DNA of 64,000 nucleotides from assembly GCA_937136395.1 (NCBI GenBank), contig CAKZOI010000047.1, positions 1-64,000 on the forward strand, in the 5' to 3' direction. Origin of the DNA: an uncultured Opitutia bacterium (GTDB lineage Bacteria > Verrucomicrobiota > Verrucomicrobiia > Opitutales > Coraliomargaritaceae). Shown here piece after piece: positions 24,479 to 52,557 of this stretch. Below the pieces are notes generated by a model, which saw only the letters and a list, made by a program, of their open reading frames with translations, had not been told where the DNA came from and did not search any database. The first letter of the stretch is position 1. Every line of letters begins with the position of its first letter. A program made the translations under genes and the position numbers.

Positions 24479-24601
24479 CCCAGGCACTACACAACCGCAC
24501 GCATCTCATAGCACAAGGGCAAAGCGATACGGCTAAGGATTTTGAAATGCCCACATCCAGTTCTTGCCAGAAGAAGGGCCAGTGTTACAGATAATACATA
24601 T

Positions 24602-25765
24602 ATGCGTTTTCTGCTGAATTCGATCCTCTTATGCTTATTAACTACCTCATTGTTTGCGGTAGATAAAAAAGTCGGCGTATGGCAGATTCTCGAAGATTGT
24701 CGCTTGGTCCAATCCGATATAAATGATGGCGATAGTTTCCTTGTTCAGCATGGAAACGAAAGTAGTGTCTTTCGAATCTATTACGTCGACACGCCTGAAA
24801 TATCAGAAAAATATATGGATCGAGTTCGTGACCAAGCTCGTTACTTTTCGATTCCCACAGATGATGTGATCACCACAGGCGAACTCGCGGCCAATTTTAG
24901 CAAACTCTTTTTGCGCGATAACTTTACGGTCTATACCAAGTGGGAAGATGCGCGGGGTGACGGCAAGAAGCGCTATTACGCACTGGTCAAAAGTAAGGAT
25001 CGCTATTTATCGATGGAACTTGTCAGTAATGGGCTCGCGCGAATTTACGGTATGCCCACCAAGCAAGCATGGCCAACTGGTTACAGCCCTAGGACCTATT
25101 TGAGTCGCCTGAAAAATGCTGAGCGACAAGCACAGCGCGACCGCACTGGAATCTGGGCGGTAGGAGGAAGCTCTAAGCAAATGGCAGGTTTAGAGTCGCT
25201 TCGCGAAAATGCCGAAAACGCCTCTCAAGCAGGAGCGCCTAAACTCGATACAATTGATCGCAGCCGCGCCTCCAGCAAAACGGGCATGCTGAACGTCAAT
25301 ACCGCTAGCCAAGCAGAACTCGAAACGCTTCCAGGCATCGGACCCGCATATGCCAAAGCAATCATACAAGCTCGCCCAATAGAAACTATTGATTCACTCG
25401 TTAATATCCCAGGAATCAGTGCCAACAAGCTCGCGGCCTTCAGGTCGCTGATCATTGTCGCCGAGCCACCACCACCGCCAAACACAGTTGAGTTTTACCT
25501 AGCAGACCTACCAAGCTATTTGAACAAAGACGTCACCCTATCCATTGCATCGGTGAGTGACTCCAAGGTAGCAAGTCCTGAAAGCTTTCGATCAGTCACG
25601 CTTTACACCGCCTTCGAAGGTGAAGCCGGCGGCAATATCACCGCATTCATCCCAGACGAGTTCTACGATTCTTTTATTCAGTATTACCGTGAATCTGGTC
25701 GAGAGTTAAAAGGGCTCCTCTATGACCGCGAGGGTGAAACTGTATTGGTCTACCGCAGGCAGTAA
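24602..25765 (+). CDS. Secreted thermonuclease-like/helix-hairpin-helix fusion protein
   Basis: The 387-residue protein starts with a signal peptide (RFLLNSILLCLLTTSLFA). Residues about 20-190 form a staphylococcal nuclease-like OB-fold with YVDTPE and a later RAQRDRTGIW end typical of the family. Residues about 235-295 form a ComEA-type helix-hairpin-helix pair: LNVNTASQAELETLPGIGPA. A C-terminal domain of about 90 residues is unassigned. It probably acts on or binds DNA outside the cytoplasm. The ATG at 24602 was chosen because the signal peptide starts there. The classical nuclease Arg and Glu residues were not checked in detail, so activity is uncertain. Confidence 0.8.
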   Translation: MRFLLNSILLCLLTTSLFAVDKKVGVWQILEDCRLVQSDINDGDSFLVQHGNESSVFRIYYVDTPEISEKYMDRVRDQARYFSIPTDDVITTGELAANFSKLFLRDNFTVYTKWEDARGDGKKRYYALVKSKDRYLSMELVSNGLARIYGMPTKQAWPTGYSPRTYLSRLKNAERQAQRDRTGIWAVGGSSKQMAGLESLRENAENASQAGAPKLDTIDRSRASSKTGMLNVNTASQAELETLPGIGPAYAKAIIQARPIETIDSLVNIPGISANKLAAFRSLIIVAEPPPPPNTVEFYLADLPSYLNKDVTLSIASVSDSKVASPESFRSVTLYTAFEGEAGGNITAFIPDEFYDSFIQYYRESGRELKGLLYDREGETVLVYRRQ

Positions 25766-25800: not shown

Positions 25801-26619
25801 ATGAACTTGAAATATTTTAACCGCTATCTCATCAAAAAAGGGCGCAATGATGACTTAAGAAAAGTTGTTTCAGACCCGTGGGATGACCTACCAAAAAGCA
25901 AGAGCGAAGCGAATAAAGAGCTCCATTCGCTCCATATACGCCTAGGAGACCTGCAACAACGCTTCTTTGTCGACCGTCGCAAAAAACTCCTCTTCGTGCT
26001 GCAAGGTATGGATACCAGCGGAAAAAATGGCACCATTAAACATGTGTTCAGAGGGGTGAATCCACAAGGTGTGCATGTCGCCAGCTTCGAAAAACCTTCC
26101 ACACGAGAGCTCAATCATGACTACCTCTGGCGGGTGCACAAGCGCACGCCATCCAATGGTGAAATAATGATTTTTGACCGTAGTCATTACGAAGATGTCC
26201 TCGCAGTCAGAGTCAACAATTTGCAGCCCGAAGCAATCTGGCGTAAGCGCTATCGTCATATCAACGATTTCGAACAACTCCTCGTCGACGAAAACACAGT
26301 CATCATTAAGTTCTTTTTACACATCGACAAAACGACACAGAAGCAGCGCTTACAAGAGCGCCTCGACATACCCGCAAAGAATTGGAAATTCGACCCCTCC
26401 GATATCGTCGCACGCAGCAAGTGGGATCAGTATTTTGAAGCCTACGAAGAAGTCTTCGAGAAAACAAGTAAACCACATGCTCCATGGTATGTGATACCGG
26501 CGAATAAAAAATGGGCGCGTAATCTTTTAGTCGCACGTATCGTGGTCGCCTGCTTGGAAGACATGCAATTAAGCTATCCCAAGGTCGACTATGATCCAAG
26601 CTCCGTGCAAATCGATTAA
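25801..26619 (+). CDS. Polyphosphate kinase 2 family protein
   Basis: The 272-residue cytosolic enzyme carries Walker A GMDTSGKNGTIKH, Walker B DRSHYEDVL and a lid-like region rich in Arg, matching PPK2. These enzymes transfer phosphate between polyphosphate and nucleotides; class I or III cannot be split by eye. The gene follows the nuclease-like gene by 35 bases and precedes moaE by 11 bases, so it may be part of a short operon, although the functions are unrelated. Confidence 0.9.
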   Translation: MNLKYFNRYLIKKGRNDDLRKVVSDPWDDLPKSKSEANKELHSLHIRLGDLQQRFFVDRRKKLLFVLQGMDTSGKNGTIKHVFRGVNPQGVHVASFEKPSTRELNHDYLWRVHKRTPSNGEIMIFDRSHYEDVLAVRVNNLQPEAIWRKRYRHINDFEQLLVDENTVIIKFFLHIDKTTQKQRLQERLDIPAKNWKFDPSDIVARSKWDQYFEAYEEVFEKTSKPHAPWYVIPANKKWARNLLVARIVVACLEDMQLSYPKVDYDPSSVQID

Positions 26620-27821: not shown

Positions 27822-28632
27822 GTGAAAATTGGATTTGTGCTTTATGACTATTACCCTTTTTTGGGGGGTGCAGGAAGATTGCTTGGCGATAGCCTTGCAG
27901 TGTGCGAGTCGCGGACATGAAGTGCATGTATTCTGCTGCAGCTGGAAAGGTGAACAGCCTGACAGTCTCCAAATCCACATTTTAGGCAAATTGGGGTGGA
28001 GCAACATCGCTCGTAATCGACATTTCTTTAGGCAACTAGAGTTTATTTTACCCAAACACCGCCTAGATGGCGTCGTTGCATTTAACCGTATGCCAAATGC
28101 AGACCCCTACGCGCAACGCATGGGTTGGCTCAACCAAATTGTAGGTCTCAAATATTATAATGTGTATGGCCCCAACGAAGCACATAAAGGCGACATGCGC
28201 AGTCTCGTTGCTAAAGCTTATGAGCAAATCCAAGAAACGGGCCAACTCGGTCTTTTTAAAAGCTATCATCCAGACTATACGGATGGTAATCAGATGCGCG
28301 ACTTTCTCTATGTTAAAGATGCAGTCGCAATGACTTTGCACCTCGCCAATACAGACACTGCAAATGGTTTATATAATCTAGGCAGTGGTCAGGCCAACAC
28401 ATGGAATACCTTGGCGAATGCTATTTTTAGCGCACTTGGGAAAGAACCCAATATCCGCTACATCGACATGCCTGATGCGCTTAAAGGTAAGTATCAATAT
28501 TACACCTGCGCGAATACTGATAAACTACGTAAGAGTGGTTATACAAATCCAGGCTACAGCTTAGAAGATGGCGTTAAAGACTATGTGCAAAACTACTTAG
28601 TTACCAACCAGCATCTCGGTCAAGAGTACTAA
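27822..28632 (+). pseudogene. Chimera: WaaG-like glycosyltransferase N-part fused to HldD C-part
   Basis: The first part, from a GTG at 27822, is the N-terminal domain of a WaaG-like GT4 glycosyltransferase: KIGFVLYDYYPF, then after a frame change CASRGHEVHVFCCSWKG and VVAFNRMPNADPY. From about 28111 it becomes the C-terminal part of ADP-glyceromanno-heptose 6-epimerase: LNQIVGLKYYNVYGPNEAHK, MRDFLYVKDAVAMTLHLA and KGKYQYYT. A one-base frame change near a T6G6 tract (27857-27868) separates the first codons from the rest. The epimerase lacks its NAD-binding N-terminal half and the transferase its C-terminal half, so neither enzyme should work. Deletion between two neighbouring genes is the simplest cause; an assembly join is possible. 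Confidence 0.8.
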
Positions 28633-28636
28633 TACT

Positions 28637-29133
28637 ATGCATTTATCGAATGACAAATTGCTCACGATTGAGCAAGCCCTTGAAGCTCGTCGAAAATTAC
28701 GATCAGAGAACAAAACCATGGTCCTCACCAACGGTTGCTTCGACATTCTTCATGCTGGGCATATTTCGTATTTACAAGCAGCACAGAAAATAGGCGATGA
28801 ACTCTGGATCCTCATAAATAGCGATGCAAGCGTTCGCACCCTCAAGGGACCTCACCGACCAATCGTCCAGCAAGCTGAACGCGCCTACTGTCTTGCCGCG
28901 CTCAACTGCGTCGATCGTATTATTATTTTCAATACACCAAGGATAAGCAAAAAAATCACACAGCTGACTCCTGATATTTATACAAAAGCCGGTGACTACA
29001 CAATCGAAACACTGAATAAGGAAAGCGAGCGGCTCTCGAATCTATTGAAGCAGACATTCAGTTCCTGCCGTTCCTCGAAGGCTTTAGCACTACAAGTATG
29101 ATTGAAAAAATCAAAACTGCTGGCTCACTCTAA
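28637..29133 (+). pseudogene. hldE: Heptose 1-phosphate adenylyltransferase, C-terminally frameshifted
   Basis: The first 130 codons encode the nucleotidyltransferase domain of HldE/RfaE2: LTNGCFDILHAGHISYLQAA with the HxGH motif, and KAGDYTIETLNKE. Near 29028-29033 the frame shifts by one base; the expected C-terminus (ADIQFLPFLEGFSTTSMIEK) is encoded in the next frame up to the TAA at 29131. As read, the protein ends at 29101 with a scrambled tail. The enzyme makes ADP-heptose for LPS core. Either the base is missing from the sequence or the gene has a real C-terminal frameshift. Confidence 0.8.
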
Positions 29134-29147
29134 CTCAACCACTACTC

Positions 29148-29729
29148 ATGTCTCTAGTAACCAAAGACTATCAAGCCCTCAAGGCTTGTATTGACGTAAT
29201 TGAACCACAGTTAAGTCTCATCGAGACCACCGGTGAACTTGTATTAAATCGACTAACGAAGGGCCATACACTCTTTGCCTGCGGCAATGGTGGAAGCGCT
29301 ACTGATTCGATGCATCTTTGCGAGGAATTGGTTGGGCGCTATCGAGGTGACCGCTGTCCACTACCTGCGGTTTCACTCAACACTGATACCTCGGTGCTTA
29401 CTTGCATCAGCAACGACTATGGGTTTGTTGCGATTTTCAGTCGTCAAATTCAGGCCTTAGGTAAGTCTAACGATATCCTTGTAGGATTCTCGACTAGCGG
29501 CAATTCTGAGAACATTGCCCTAGCCTTCGAAACCGCGAAGAAAAAAGGTCTGACGACGATCTTACTGACTGGGGAAACTGGAGGTAAAATCAAGGGGCTT
29601 GCGGACCATTCAATCCTCATACCCAGTCAAAATACCGCTCGAATTCAAGAACTGCACACATTTGTATTGCATGCTTGTCTCGAAATCGTCGAAAACCATA
29701 ATTGGTCTTCATTGAAAGACCGCGAATAA
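29148..29729 (+). CDS. gmhA: Sedoheptulose-7-phosphate isomerase GmhA
   Basis: The 193-residue SIS-domain protein shows CGNGGSATDSMHLCEELVGR, LVGFSTSGNSENI and QELHTFVLHACLEIVE, as in GmhA. It converts sedoheptulose 7-phosphate to glycero-manno-heptose 7-phosphate, the first step of heptose synthesis for LPS. It appears intact, unlike the two genes before it. The kinase gene follows by 11 bases. Confidence 0.92.
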   Translation: MSLVTKDYQALKACIDVIEPQLSLIETTGELVLNRLTKGHTLFACGNGGSATDSMHLCEELVGRYRGDRCPLPAVSLNTDTSVLTCISNDYGFVAIFSRQIQALGKSNDILVGFSTSGNSENIALAFETAKKKGLTTILLTGETGGKIKGLADHSILIPSQNTARIQELHTFVLHACLEIVENHNWSSLKDRE

Positions 29730-29740
29730 CCCTTCATGAA

Positions 29741-30727
29741 GTGGATACTGAAAGCTTACTCAACAAATTCTCTAATTTAAACATCGTCGTTATTGGCGAT
29801 ATTATGCTCGACCATTATATTATGGGCGAAGCGAGACGCATCTCTCCGGAGGCTCCCGTTCCAGTGGTTTCAGTTTCAAGTGATACCTATGTGCCGGGCG
29901 GTGCGGCGAATGTAGCCAACAATCTCTCAGGAATTGGCGCACCTGCGCAACTGATTGGTGCATATTGCGATGATCCTGAAAGTAAATTGCTCAATGATGT
30001 GCTGGTTCAGCGTGCAATCACATTATCAAGCCTCGGCAAACAAGCGGGTGCCACTACGATCGTCAAAACACGAGTCGTAGTGCAACGACAGCAGCTATGC
30101 CGAATTGACCGTGAGGCAAAGCCTAAGGCATACGCTATCGACCATCTATTCGAAAATCCTGAATTTATAGAACTCATCACAAACGCCGATGCAGTGCTCT
30201 TTTCCGACTATGCTAAAGGCGTGATCAATGATCCATTGCTCAATACGGTTCGTGCCATTGTTCGCACACTGACTACGCCGCCAATGTTAGTCATAGACCC
30301 CAAGCCTAAACGTCAACTTGACCTGTCGGGGATGTCTTTGATGACTCCAAATCGTAGTGAAGCTCTGTTTATGGCTGGGTTGGATGATTGCCAAAGCGCT
30401 GATTTTGATGACGTAGCTGTCGCAGAAGCCATCTTTCAGAAATACTGCCCTGATATGTTGGTCATAACTTTAGGCGCAGAGGGCATGCTACTCGGTGAGA
30501 ACGGTAAAATCATTGGGCGTATTGAGACCGAAGCACGCGAGGTCTTTGACGTGTCTGGAGCAGGTGACACCGTTGTGGCAGTATTGACTGCGGCACTAGC
30601 CAGTGGCGAGTCGCTGATTTCCGCCGCATCATTGGCGAATCGAGCGGCAGGCATCGCAGTGAGTCATCTTGGGACGGCCCCCGTCTCTACGGCAGAGCTT
30701 CTCGAGCAGGACACGGTGAGCACGTAG
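29741..30727 (+). CDS. Heptose 7-phosphate kinase (RfaE1 type)
   Basis: The 328-residue PfkB/ribokinase-fold protein has VVIGDIMLDHYI, YVPGGAANVANN and the catalytic DVSGAGDTVVAVL motif. It phosphorylates heptose 7-phosphate to the 1,7-bisphosphate. In E. coli this is the N-terminal half of HldE; here it is a separate gene. I used the GTG at 29741, 12 bases after gmhA ends; a TTG at 29702 inside gmhA is possible. GmhB, the phosphatase needed next, is not seen in this window. Confidence 0.88.
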   Translation: MDTESLLNKFSNLNIVVIGDIMLDHYIMGEARRISPEAPVPVVSVSSDTYVPGGAANVANNLSGIGAPAQLIGAYCDDPESKLLNDVLVQRAITLSSLGKQAGATTIVKTRVVVQRQQLCRIDREAKPKAYAIDHLFENPEFIELITNADAVLFSDYAKGVINDPLLNTVRAIVRTLTTPPMLVIDPKPKRQLDLSGMSLMTPNRSEALFMAGLDDCQSADFDDVAVAEAIFQKYCPDMLVITLGAEGMLLGENGKIIGRIETEAREVFDVSGAGDTVVAVLTAALASGESLISAASLANRAAGIAVSHLGTAPVSTAELLEQDTVST

Positions 30728-52126: not shown

Positions 52127-52263
52127 CATTTTATAAGCCTTAATCGCAATCTGACTCTTAATCTTAATCTTCTCGTGTGGTTAGATTACGGCACGGGCAT
52201 GTTAGGTCGTAGCTTTAGAGAAGGCTAGTTCCTCCGTGCCATGGATACCTTGTTAATACGGTC

Positions 52264-52347
52264 CTGGAGGGTTGCGCTCTGTCGCAACCGCGTTGTGTCC
52301 GATATGCCTCGAAGTATCTGCGGCGGTGACGGAGCACCGCCCTCCAG
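52264..52347. repeat. 84-bp hairpin-ended repeat, copy 1
   Basis: The unit starts CTGGAGGG plus the hairpin TTGCGCTCTGTCGCAA and CCGCG, and ends with CGGCGGTGACGGAGCACCGC and CCTCCAG. Its ends are inverted CTGGAGGG/CCCTCCAG, but the two hairpins are different in sequence. Confidence 0.85.
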
Positions 52348-52380
52348 TTATCCGTCTTCTTCGTAATTTGTTAACCGGTC

Positions 52381-52464
52381 CTGGAGGGTTGCGCTCTGTC
52401 GCAACCGCGTTGTGTCCGATACGCCTCAAAGTATCTGCGGCGGTGACGGAGCACCGCCCTCCAG
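52381..52464. repeat. 84-bp hairpin-ended repeat, copy 2
   Basis: Nearly identical to the copy at 52264 and in the same orientation, giving a 117-base tandem period. The two copies are joined by TTATCCGTCTTCTTCGTAA and TTTGTTAACCGGTC, and the TTATCC...CTTCGTAA part recurs after copy 2. Confidence 0.85.
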
Positions 52465-52480
52465 TTATCCGCCCTCTTCG

Positions 52481-52557
52481 TAATCTTACTCATAATCTCC
52501 ACATAATATTGCATCTCGCACCGAGATTGAGATTAAGAGTATGAATAAGATTAAGAC
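52481..52557. repeat. GATTAAGA inverted repeat before the MFS gene
   Basis: TAATCTTACTCATAATCTCC and, after about 30 bases, GAGATTGAGATTAAGAGTA and TGAATAAGATTAAGA are inverted arms. A similar arrangement is at 27128-27179. It ends 16 bases before the MFS start codon. Confidence 0.5.

Follow-up and report, generated by a model that had tools for sequence, protein, structure and literature searches.

The 64,000-nucleotide stretch of DNA analysed here, which comes from a bacterium of the Opitutales and is referred to as the window, encodes a protein in which a staphylococcal nuclease (SNase) domain bearing its core active-site residues is joined to a ComEA-type helix-hairpin-helix (HhH) pair and a probable OB fold, behind a signal-like N-terminus (Table 1). 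We favor the explanation, to which we give about an even chance of being right, that this is an exported DNA-tethered nuclease that degrades DNA from the environment or the periplasm so that nucleotides and phosphate can be salvaged. Once its signal peptide had been removed, the mature three-module protein would lie outside the cytosol, where the SNase domain would cut nucleic acid while the HhH pair, perhaps together with the OB domain, would hold DNA. With the substrate held in this way, cutting on the cell surface or in the periplasm could be kept local or made processive, and the degraded DNA would feed the salvage pathways.

Table 1. Coordinates of the SNase-HhH-OB gene, its parts, its conserved neighbor and related stand-alone proteins
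Feature	Position	Strand	Basis or remarks
Whole gene: signal-like N-terminus, SNase, (HhH)2, OB	24602..25765	+	387 aa
Signal-peptide-like N-terminus, residues 1-19	24602..24658	+	By eye; pattern recurs in homologues
SNase catalytic domain with core active-site residues and an extra helix	24671..25171	+	PF00565, profile alignment, fold, conservation
ComEA-type HhH pair, residues 229-281	25286..25444	+	Pfam PF12836; PDB ComEA chains
Proline-rich hinge and C-terminal OB-like domain, residues 289-387	25466..25762	+	AlphaFold2 model, structural matches
PPK2-family polyphosphate:nucleotide kinase	25801..26619	+	Pfam PF03976, TIGR03709; conserved neighbor
Stand-alone OB-like small proteins	L085:1408-1842, L087:1381-1824, L088:1306-1818 (-)		Signal-like N-termini

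Domain architecture and conserved residues

The reading frame opens with an ATG at 24602, and its stop codon ends at 25765; a longer frame from a TTG at 24542 is also present, and a Met-Arg start at an ATG is possible in most homologues. Judged by its relatives, the frame is real and not a product of chance, because matches at E<=1e-5 occur in 23 of the 57 genomes around the window and extend over approximately the full length in 15 of those 23, its own genome included. A promoter scan returned no sigma-70-like site. The N-terminus, read by eye, consists of Met-Arg followed by a hydrophobic run and an Ala near residue 19. The signal peptide proposed by the first-pass annotation, an earlier reading of this DNA, is therefore borne out by eye only, with the same pattern in homologues, and export of the protein is likely. 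The corresponding helix (residues 2-17) falls in a low-confidence part of the whole-protein AlphaFold2 model, which is itself modest (pLDDT 61, pTM 0.44, from an alignment of 4 sequences).

The nuclease-like domain named by the same annotation scores above the Pfam cut-off and adopts the SNase fold. Pfam SNase (PF00565) matches residues 57-186 with an E-value of 7.7e-7 and 30 bits against a cut-off of 21, while residues 27-186 of the model superpose on 1snc, which is among the tied best matches, with Z 15.9 and rmsd 2.4 over 130 aligned residues; the best Foldseek E-value for this part of the model is 3.6e-7. The first half of the protein also gives matches to the calcium-activated nuclease and thermonuclease models of NCBIfam, all of them sub-threshold. 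No Pfam family of the DNA/RNA non-specific endonuclease (NucA/EndA) type matches at E<=1, and the catalytic domain is SNase.

Residues were mapped by aligning a profile of the SNase part, built from the window protein and 21 homologues (22 sequences), to SNase chains; the alignments left out L032, whose gene lies in two frames, as well as the copies in G003 and G015 that are split or partial (L022, L023, L026-L028). D42, D44, R58, D63, E66 and R124 align on SNase D19, D21, R35, D40, E43 and R87, of which we take Arg35, Glu43 and Arg87 to be the catalytic residues and Asp21 and Asp40 to form the metal site; over the front part, which has no gaps, the PDB sequence matches give the same correspondence. 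The alignment check of catalytic residues that the annotation had suggested thus came out in favor of a nuclease: E66 and R124 are invariant in all 22 sequences, as are D42, D44 and D63, and R58 is kept in 21, being Gln in L014. At the position of SNase Thr41, the sequences carry Cys (11), Thr (7) or Ala (4). An extra helix, spanning about residues 69-82 in the model, follows E66 where the SNase chains show a gap in the profile alignment, and R74, Q78, Y81, F82 and I84 are invariant. We also observed that Cys33 (24698-24700), the sole Cys of the mature chain, is invariant in 22 of 22 sequences and has no obvious partner.

This anatomy, together with the conservation of the active site, makes a strong case for predicted nuclease function. 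A rival explanation, in which the protein binds DNA but is inactive or structural and has retained nothing of SNase beyond its fold, would accommodate the Gln that replaces Arg35 in one sequence and the modest SNase score; it is contradicted by the retention of five active-site positions in every sequence and of R58 in all but one, and we regard it as very improbable.

The second module was correctly named as a ComEA-type HhH pair. Pfam HHH_3 (PF12836) matches it with an E-value of 4.3e-12 and 46.4 bits against a cut-off of 27, and its PDB sequence matches include the ComEA chains 8dss and 2duy. The comEA models of NCBIfam give sub-threshold matches over the HhH part; for the full model TIGR01259, the score is 40.4 bits against a cut-off of 152.35, with the HhH part alone aligning. 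The pair is likely to grip DNA.

The C-terminal 99 residues, which the first-pass annotation left unassigned, indeed belong to no library family, but they model as a probable OB fold. They match no Pfam family and no PDB sequence at E<=1, and a comparison of 16 members against Pfam returned two weak, unrelated names and nothing more. Modelled alone with AlphaFold2 from 4 sequences, the domain reaches a middling pLDDT of 69.8 and a pTM of 0.65, with strands at 22-32, 41-50 and 53-63, a helix at 64-73 and strands at 79-88 and 91-96 (domain model), an E-E-E-H-E-E order that corresponds to the OB arrangement b1-b2-b3-a-b4-b5. The top Foldseek rows are mostly OB proteins (RPA, Teb1, SSB), at E-values no better than 4e-3 and with nothing at E<=1e-3. 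With VIA-align, the OB-bearing chains retrieved belong to MCM, aminoacyl-tRNA synthetases and SSB and reach a Z of no more than 7.6 (rmsd 3.1, 85 aligned), where a Z under 8 may reflect just a common arrangement. OB folds that bind nucleic acid feature prominently in these structural matches. An OB fold is thus the likely identity of the modelled domain, and it is possible that it also holds nucleic acid. The domain is carried by 16 of the 22 aligned sequences and was found in 10 of the 387 genomes of the phylum. In G210, G213 and G349, it stands alone in small proteins of 144, 147 and 170 aa with signal-like N-termini, which suggests that the domain is a module for export.

Distribution and gene neighbors

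The near relatives of the protein come from Opitutales or Opitutia MAGs. Among the genomes around the window, matches occur in 23 of the 37 of the same family and in none of the 20 from other families of the order. Across the phylum, 168 of 387 genomes match the alignment query; many of these matches are SNase alone, and the weak ones are HhH alone. SNase-HhH fusions, defined as a match over both parts or as both parts in one frame, are present in at least 35 of the 387 genomes, a count that leaves out G015 (split) and G290 (partial). In family f27 (G118, G233, G245, G262, G279), SNase matches and short HhH frames (124-153 aa) are separate. Two fusions, L092:2911-4509 (-) and L095:1545-3761 (+), are extended at the N-terminus by 270-470 residues that match nothing in Pfam. 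By these matches, the SNase-HhH pairing is a common verrucomicrobial architecture, of which the OB-bearing form is a restricted variant. A plasmid search for relatives returned 2 records, matching in the HhH part only, and a phage search returned none. Neither Pfam nor NCBIfam holds a model spanning the whole SNase-HhH(-OB) protein, and no title or abstract found among the open-access papers searched describes a ComEA-nuclease fusion.

The PPK2 gene starts 35 bp downstream of the SNase-HhH-OB gene on the same strand. A PPK2 gene lies directly downstream, on the same strand, at 10 of the 14 other full-length loci (11 of 15 genomes when the window is counted); at L010, L013, L014 and L015, it was not found within the flank of approximately 1.5 kb. 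At L074 (family f22), genes for IMPDH and adenylosuccinate synthetase, the fusion and RNase HII follow one another in this order on one strand, and at L091 (G195), the fusion directly follows CTP synthase, overlapping its end by a few bases. Most other scanned neighbors of the relatives are unrelated (helicases, transferases or no match); the scan left out L075, L089 and L093, and at L095 covered the fusion itself only.

The degradation of DNA for nucleotides and phosphate is our preferred explanation because of these PPK2, purine and CTP-synthase settings. It is further preferred because SNase relatives are multiplied in the phylum, with as many as four in one genome among the matches listed (the window's own genome has one SNase protein), a pattern that would fit enzymes for scavenging better than an uptake component present in single copy, and because comEC persists in family members that lack the protein. 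SNase is Ca2+-dependent and leaves 3'-phosphates, and PPK2 is cytosolic and acts on 5'-nucleotides, so any link between the kinase and the nuclease would be indirect; the neighbor argument is accordingly one of gene order alone. The absence of an adjacent PPK2 gene in 4 of the 15 genomes counts against salvage, as do the mostly unrelated neighbors of the other relatives. Among the open-access papers searched, no title or abstract describes the use of extracellular DNA by Verrucomicrobiota.

A nuclease at the surface or in the periplasm could also serve other ends, such as clearance of extracellular DNA from biofilms or action on RNA, with the HhH pair and OB domain providing a general grip. 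Both are general nucleic-acid-binding folds, and SNase enzymes cleave RNA as well as DNA and can have a part in the turnover of biofilms. Such a role would not predict the nucleotide-metabolism neighborhoods, and we consider it distinctly unlikely.

Elsewhere in the window, the genes of the heptose pathway occupy 28637-30727, with the HldE adenylyltransferase and kinase encoded as separate genes that flank gmhA. Ahead of this cluster, the front of the ORF at 27829-28629 weakly matches a glycosyltransferase family and its rear matches the C-terminal third of an epimerase profile only, so that the frame may be truncated or a composite. Between ORFs at 52250-52484 (after nadA, before 52573), a 117-bp unit occurs twice in tandem, the copies being 94% alike; this is possibly an intergenic repeat element.

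Competence genes and the question of DNA uptake

The first-pass annotation noted that no com genes are seen nearby, which holds for the neighborhood, but comEC, dprA and pilT are present elsewhere in the same genome. Among the 57 genomes around the window, comEC and dprA were each found in 48 and pilT over its cut-off in 44, with the window's genome positive each time; its comEC lies on another contig (G000:C22), not beside the SNase-HhH gene. The encoded ComEC, of 572 aa, has DUF4131 and Competence domains and lacks the lactamase-like nuclease domain; according to an excerpt of PMC5031224, the Helicobacter pylori ComEC likewise stops before its nuclease domain. No title or abstract among the open-access papers searched describes verrucomicrobial ComEC.

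Two HHH_3 proteins are encoded in the window's genome, the SNase-HhH protein and Tex. Of the 23 genomes with the protein, one (G019) has a further short HHH_3 frame, of 147 aa, and 4 of the 35 fusion genomes (G386, G223, G315, G205) have an additional, nearly full HHH_3 match that lies in neither a Tex-like frame nor a fusion. For the 23 genomes, score and size served to set aside matches of approximately 100 bits as Tex and frames of approximately 1250 aa as a different large protein of the cytosol, Tex being checked in the window's genome (G000) alone. Fusion-free genomes mostly also lack a non-Tex HHH_3 protein, which implies that ComEC in the phylum often occurs without a recognizable ComEA.

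These observations bear on natural transformation, in which the protein would be a fused DNA receptor and entry nuclease. The HhH pair would do the job of ComEA in the periplasm and, by analogy with the separate ComEA and NucA/EndA proteins found elsewhere, the SNase domain would make free ends or single strand for ComEC. In the excerpt of PMC6384898 that treats this partnership, ComEA hands DNA to entry nucleases, one of which works in a Gram-negative. Three points keep this explanation in play: the genome has comEC, dprA and pilT but, Tex apart, no other HHH_3 protein; the ComEC it encodes lacks a nuclease domain; and a nuclease is already known as a partner of ComEA. The evidence against it is that none of the 27 scanned neighbors of relatives, at 12 loci, is a com gene, and that comEC, found in 22 of the 23 genomes with the protein, is also kept in 9 of the 14 family members without it. 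We therefore judge a role in transformation to be a minority possibility.

The idea that SNase substitutes for the lactamase-like nuclease domain that ComEC lacks was rejected, as the trend is opposite to the prediction. With stop-to-stop frame length as a mere stand-in for the domain, ComEC frames of at least 700 aa were found in 16 of 35 genomes with SNase-HhH and in 6 of 45 without it; these 80 genomes were chosen among the matches listed, and include a partial ComEC match in G011, while 2 of the 45 genomes have no ComEC match. Within the order of the window, such frames occur in 0 of 11 genomes with SNase-HhH and 1 of 26 without it, short ComEC being present in both groups. The boldest version of the uptake explanation, in which Verrucomicrobiota would transform with a single fused periplasmic protein that combines an HhH receptor, an SNase entry nuclease and, in Opitutales, a strand-holding OB domain, and that feeds a ComEC without a nuclease domain of its own in this order, is in our view improbable.

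The first-pass annotation had proposed processing of external DNA for uptake or feeding, and processing of external DNA is still the best reading. Between the two, the gene neighbors lean toward nucleotide metabolism, while the ComEA-type HhH pair, in the sole non-Tex HHH_3 protein of the genome, speaks as well for DNA uptake. If feeding is correct, these DNA-gripping exported nucleases would offer a handle on the consumers of extracellular DNA; if uptake is correct, a single protein would serve transformation as both receptor and nuclease, in a phylum where competence has received little study.

Comparison with known systems

With staphylococcal nuclease/thermonuclease (PF00565), the window protein shares the fold, the active-site residues and a signal-like N-terminus; it differs in approximately 15 extra residues, which form the conserved helix after the catalytic Glu, and in the fused HhH and OB domains. 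With ComEA (HHH_3, TIGR01259), it shares the (HhH)2 unit and probably an exported context, but it contains a nuclease and an OB domain in addition, TIGR01259 stays below its cut-off and the gene is not beside comEC, a genetic link that is usual for ComEA but not universal. ComEA-like HhH repeats are also combined with a nuclease-fold domain in EEPD1 (9yi2), a eukaryotic protein, whose nuclease fold is EEP and differs from SNase. The periplasmic BOF/YgiW proteins offer a small OB fold for comparison with the C-terminal domain: 1nnx appears among many OB rows with Z 6.4, rmsd 3.5 and 80 aligned residues, a Z under 8 that may reflect no more than a common arrangement, and the two have no sequence match in Pfam.

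The pairing of NucA, EndA or NucM with ComEA, as portrayed in the excerpt of PMC6384898, may follow a common logic, in which an HhH protein holds DNA and an exported nuclease cuts it, although these nucleases have another fold and are separate proteins, unlike the fused SNase-HhH. Set against these systems, the protein is a variation on known parts and not a new kind of system.
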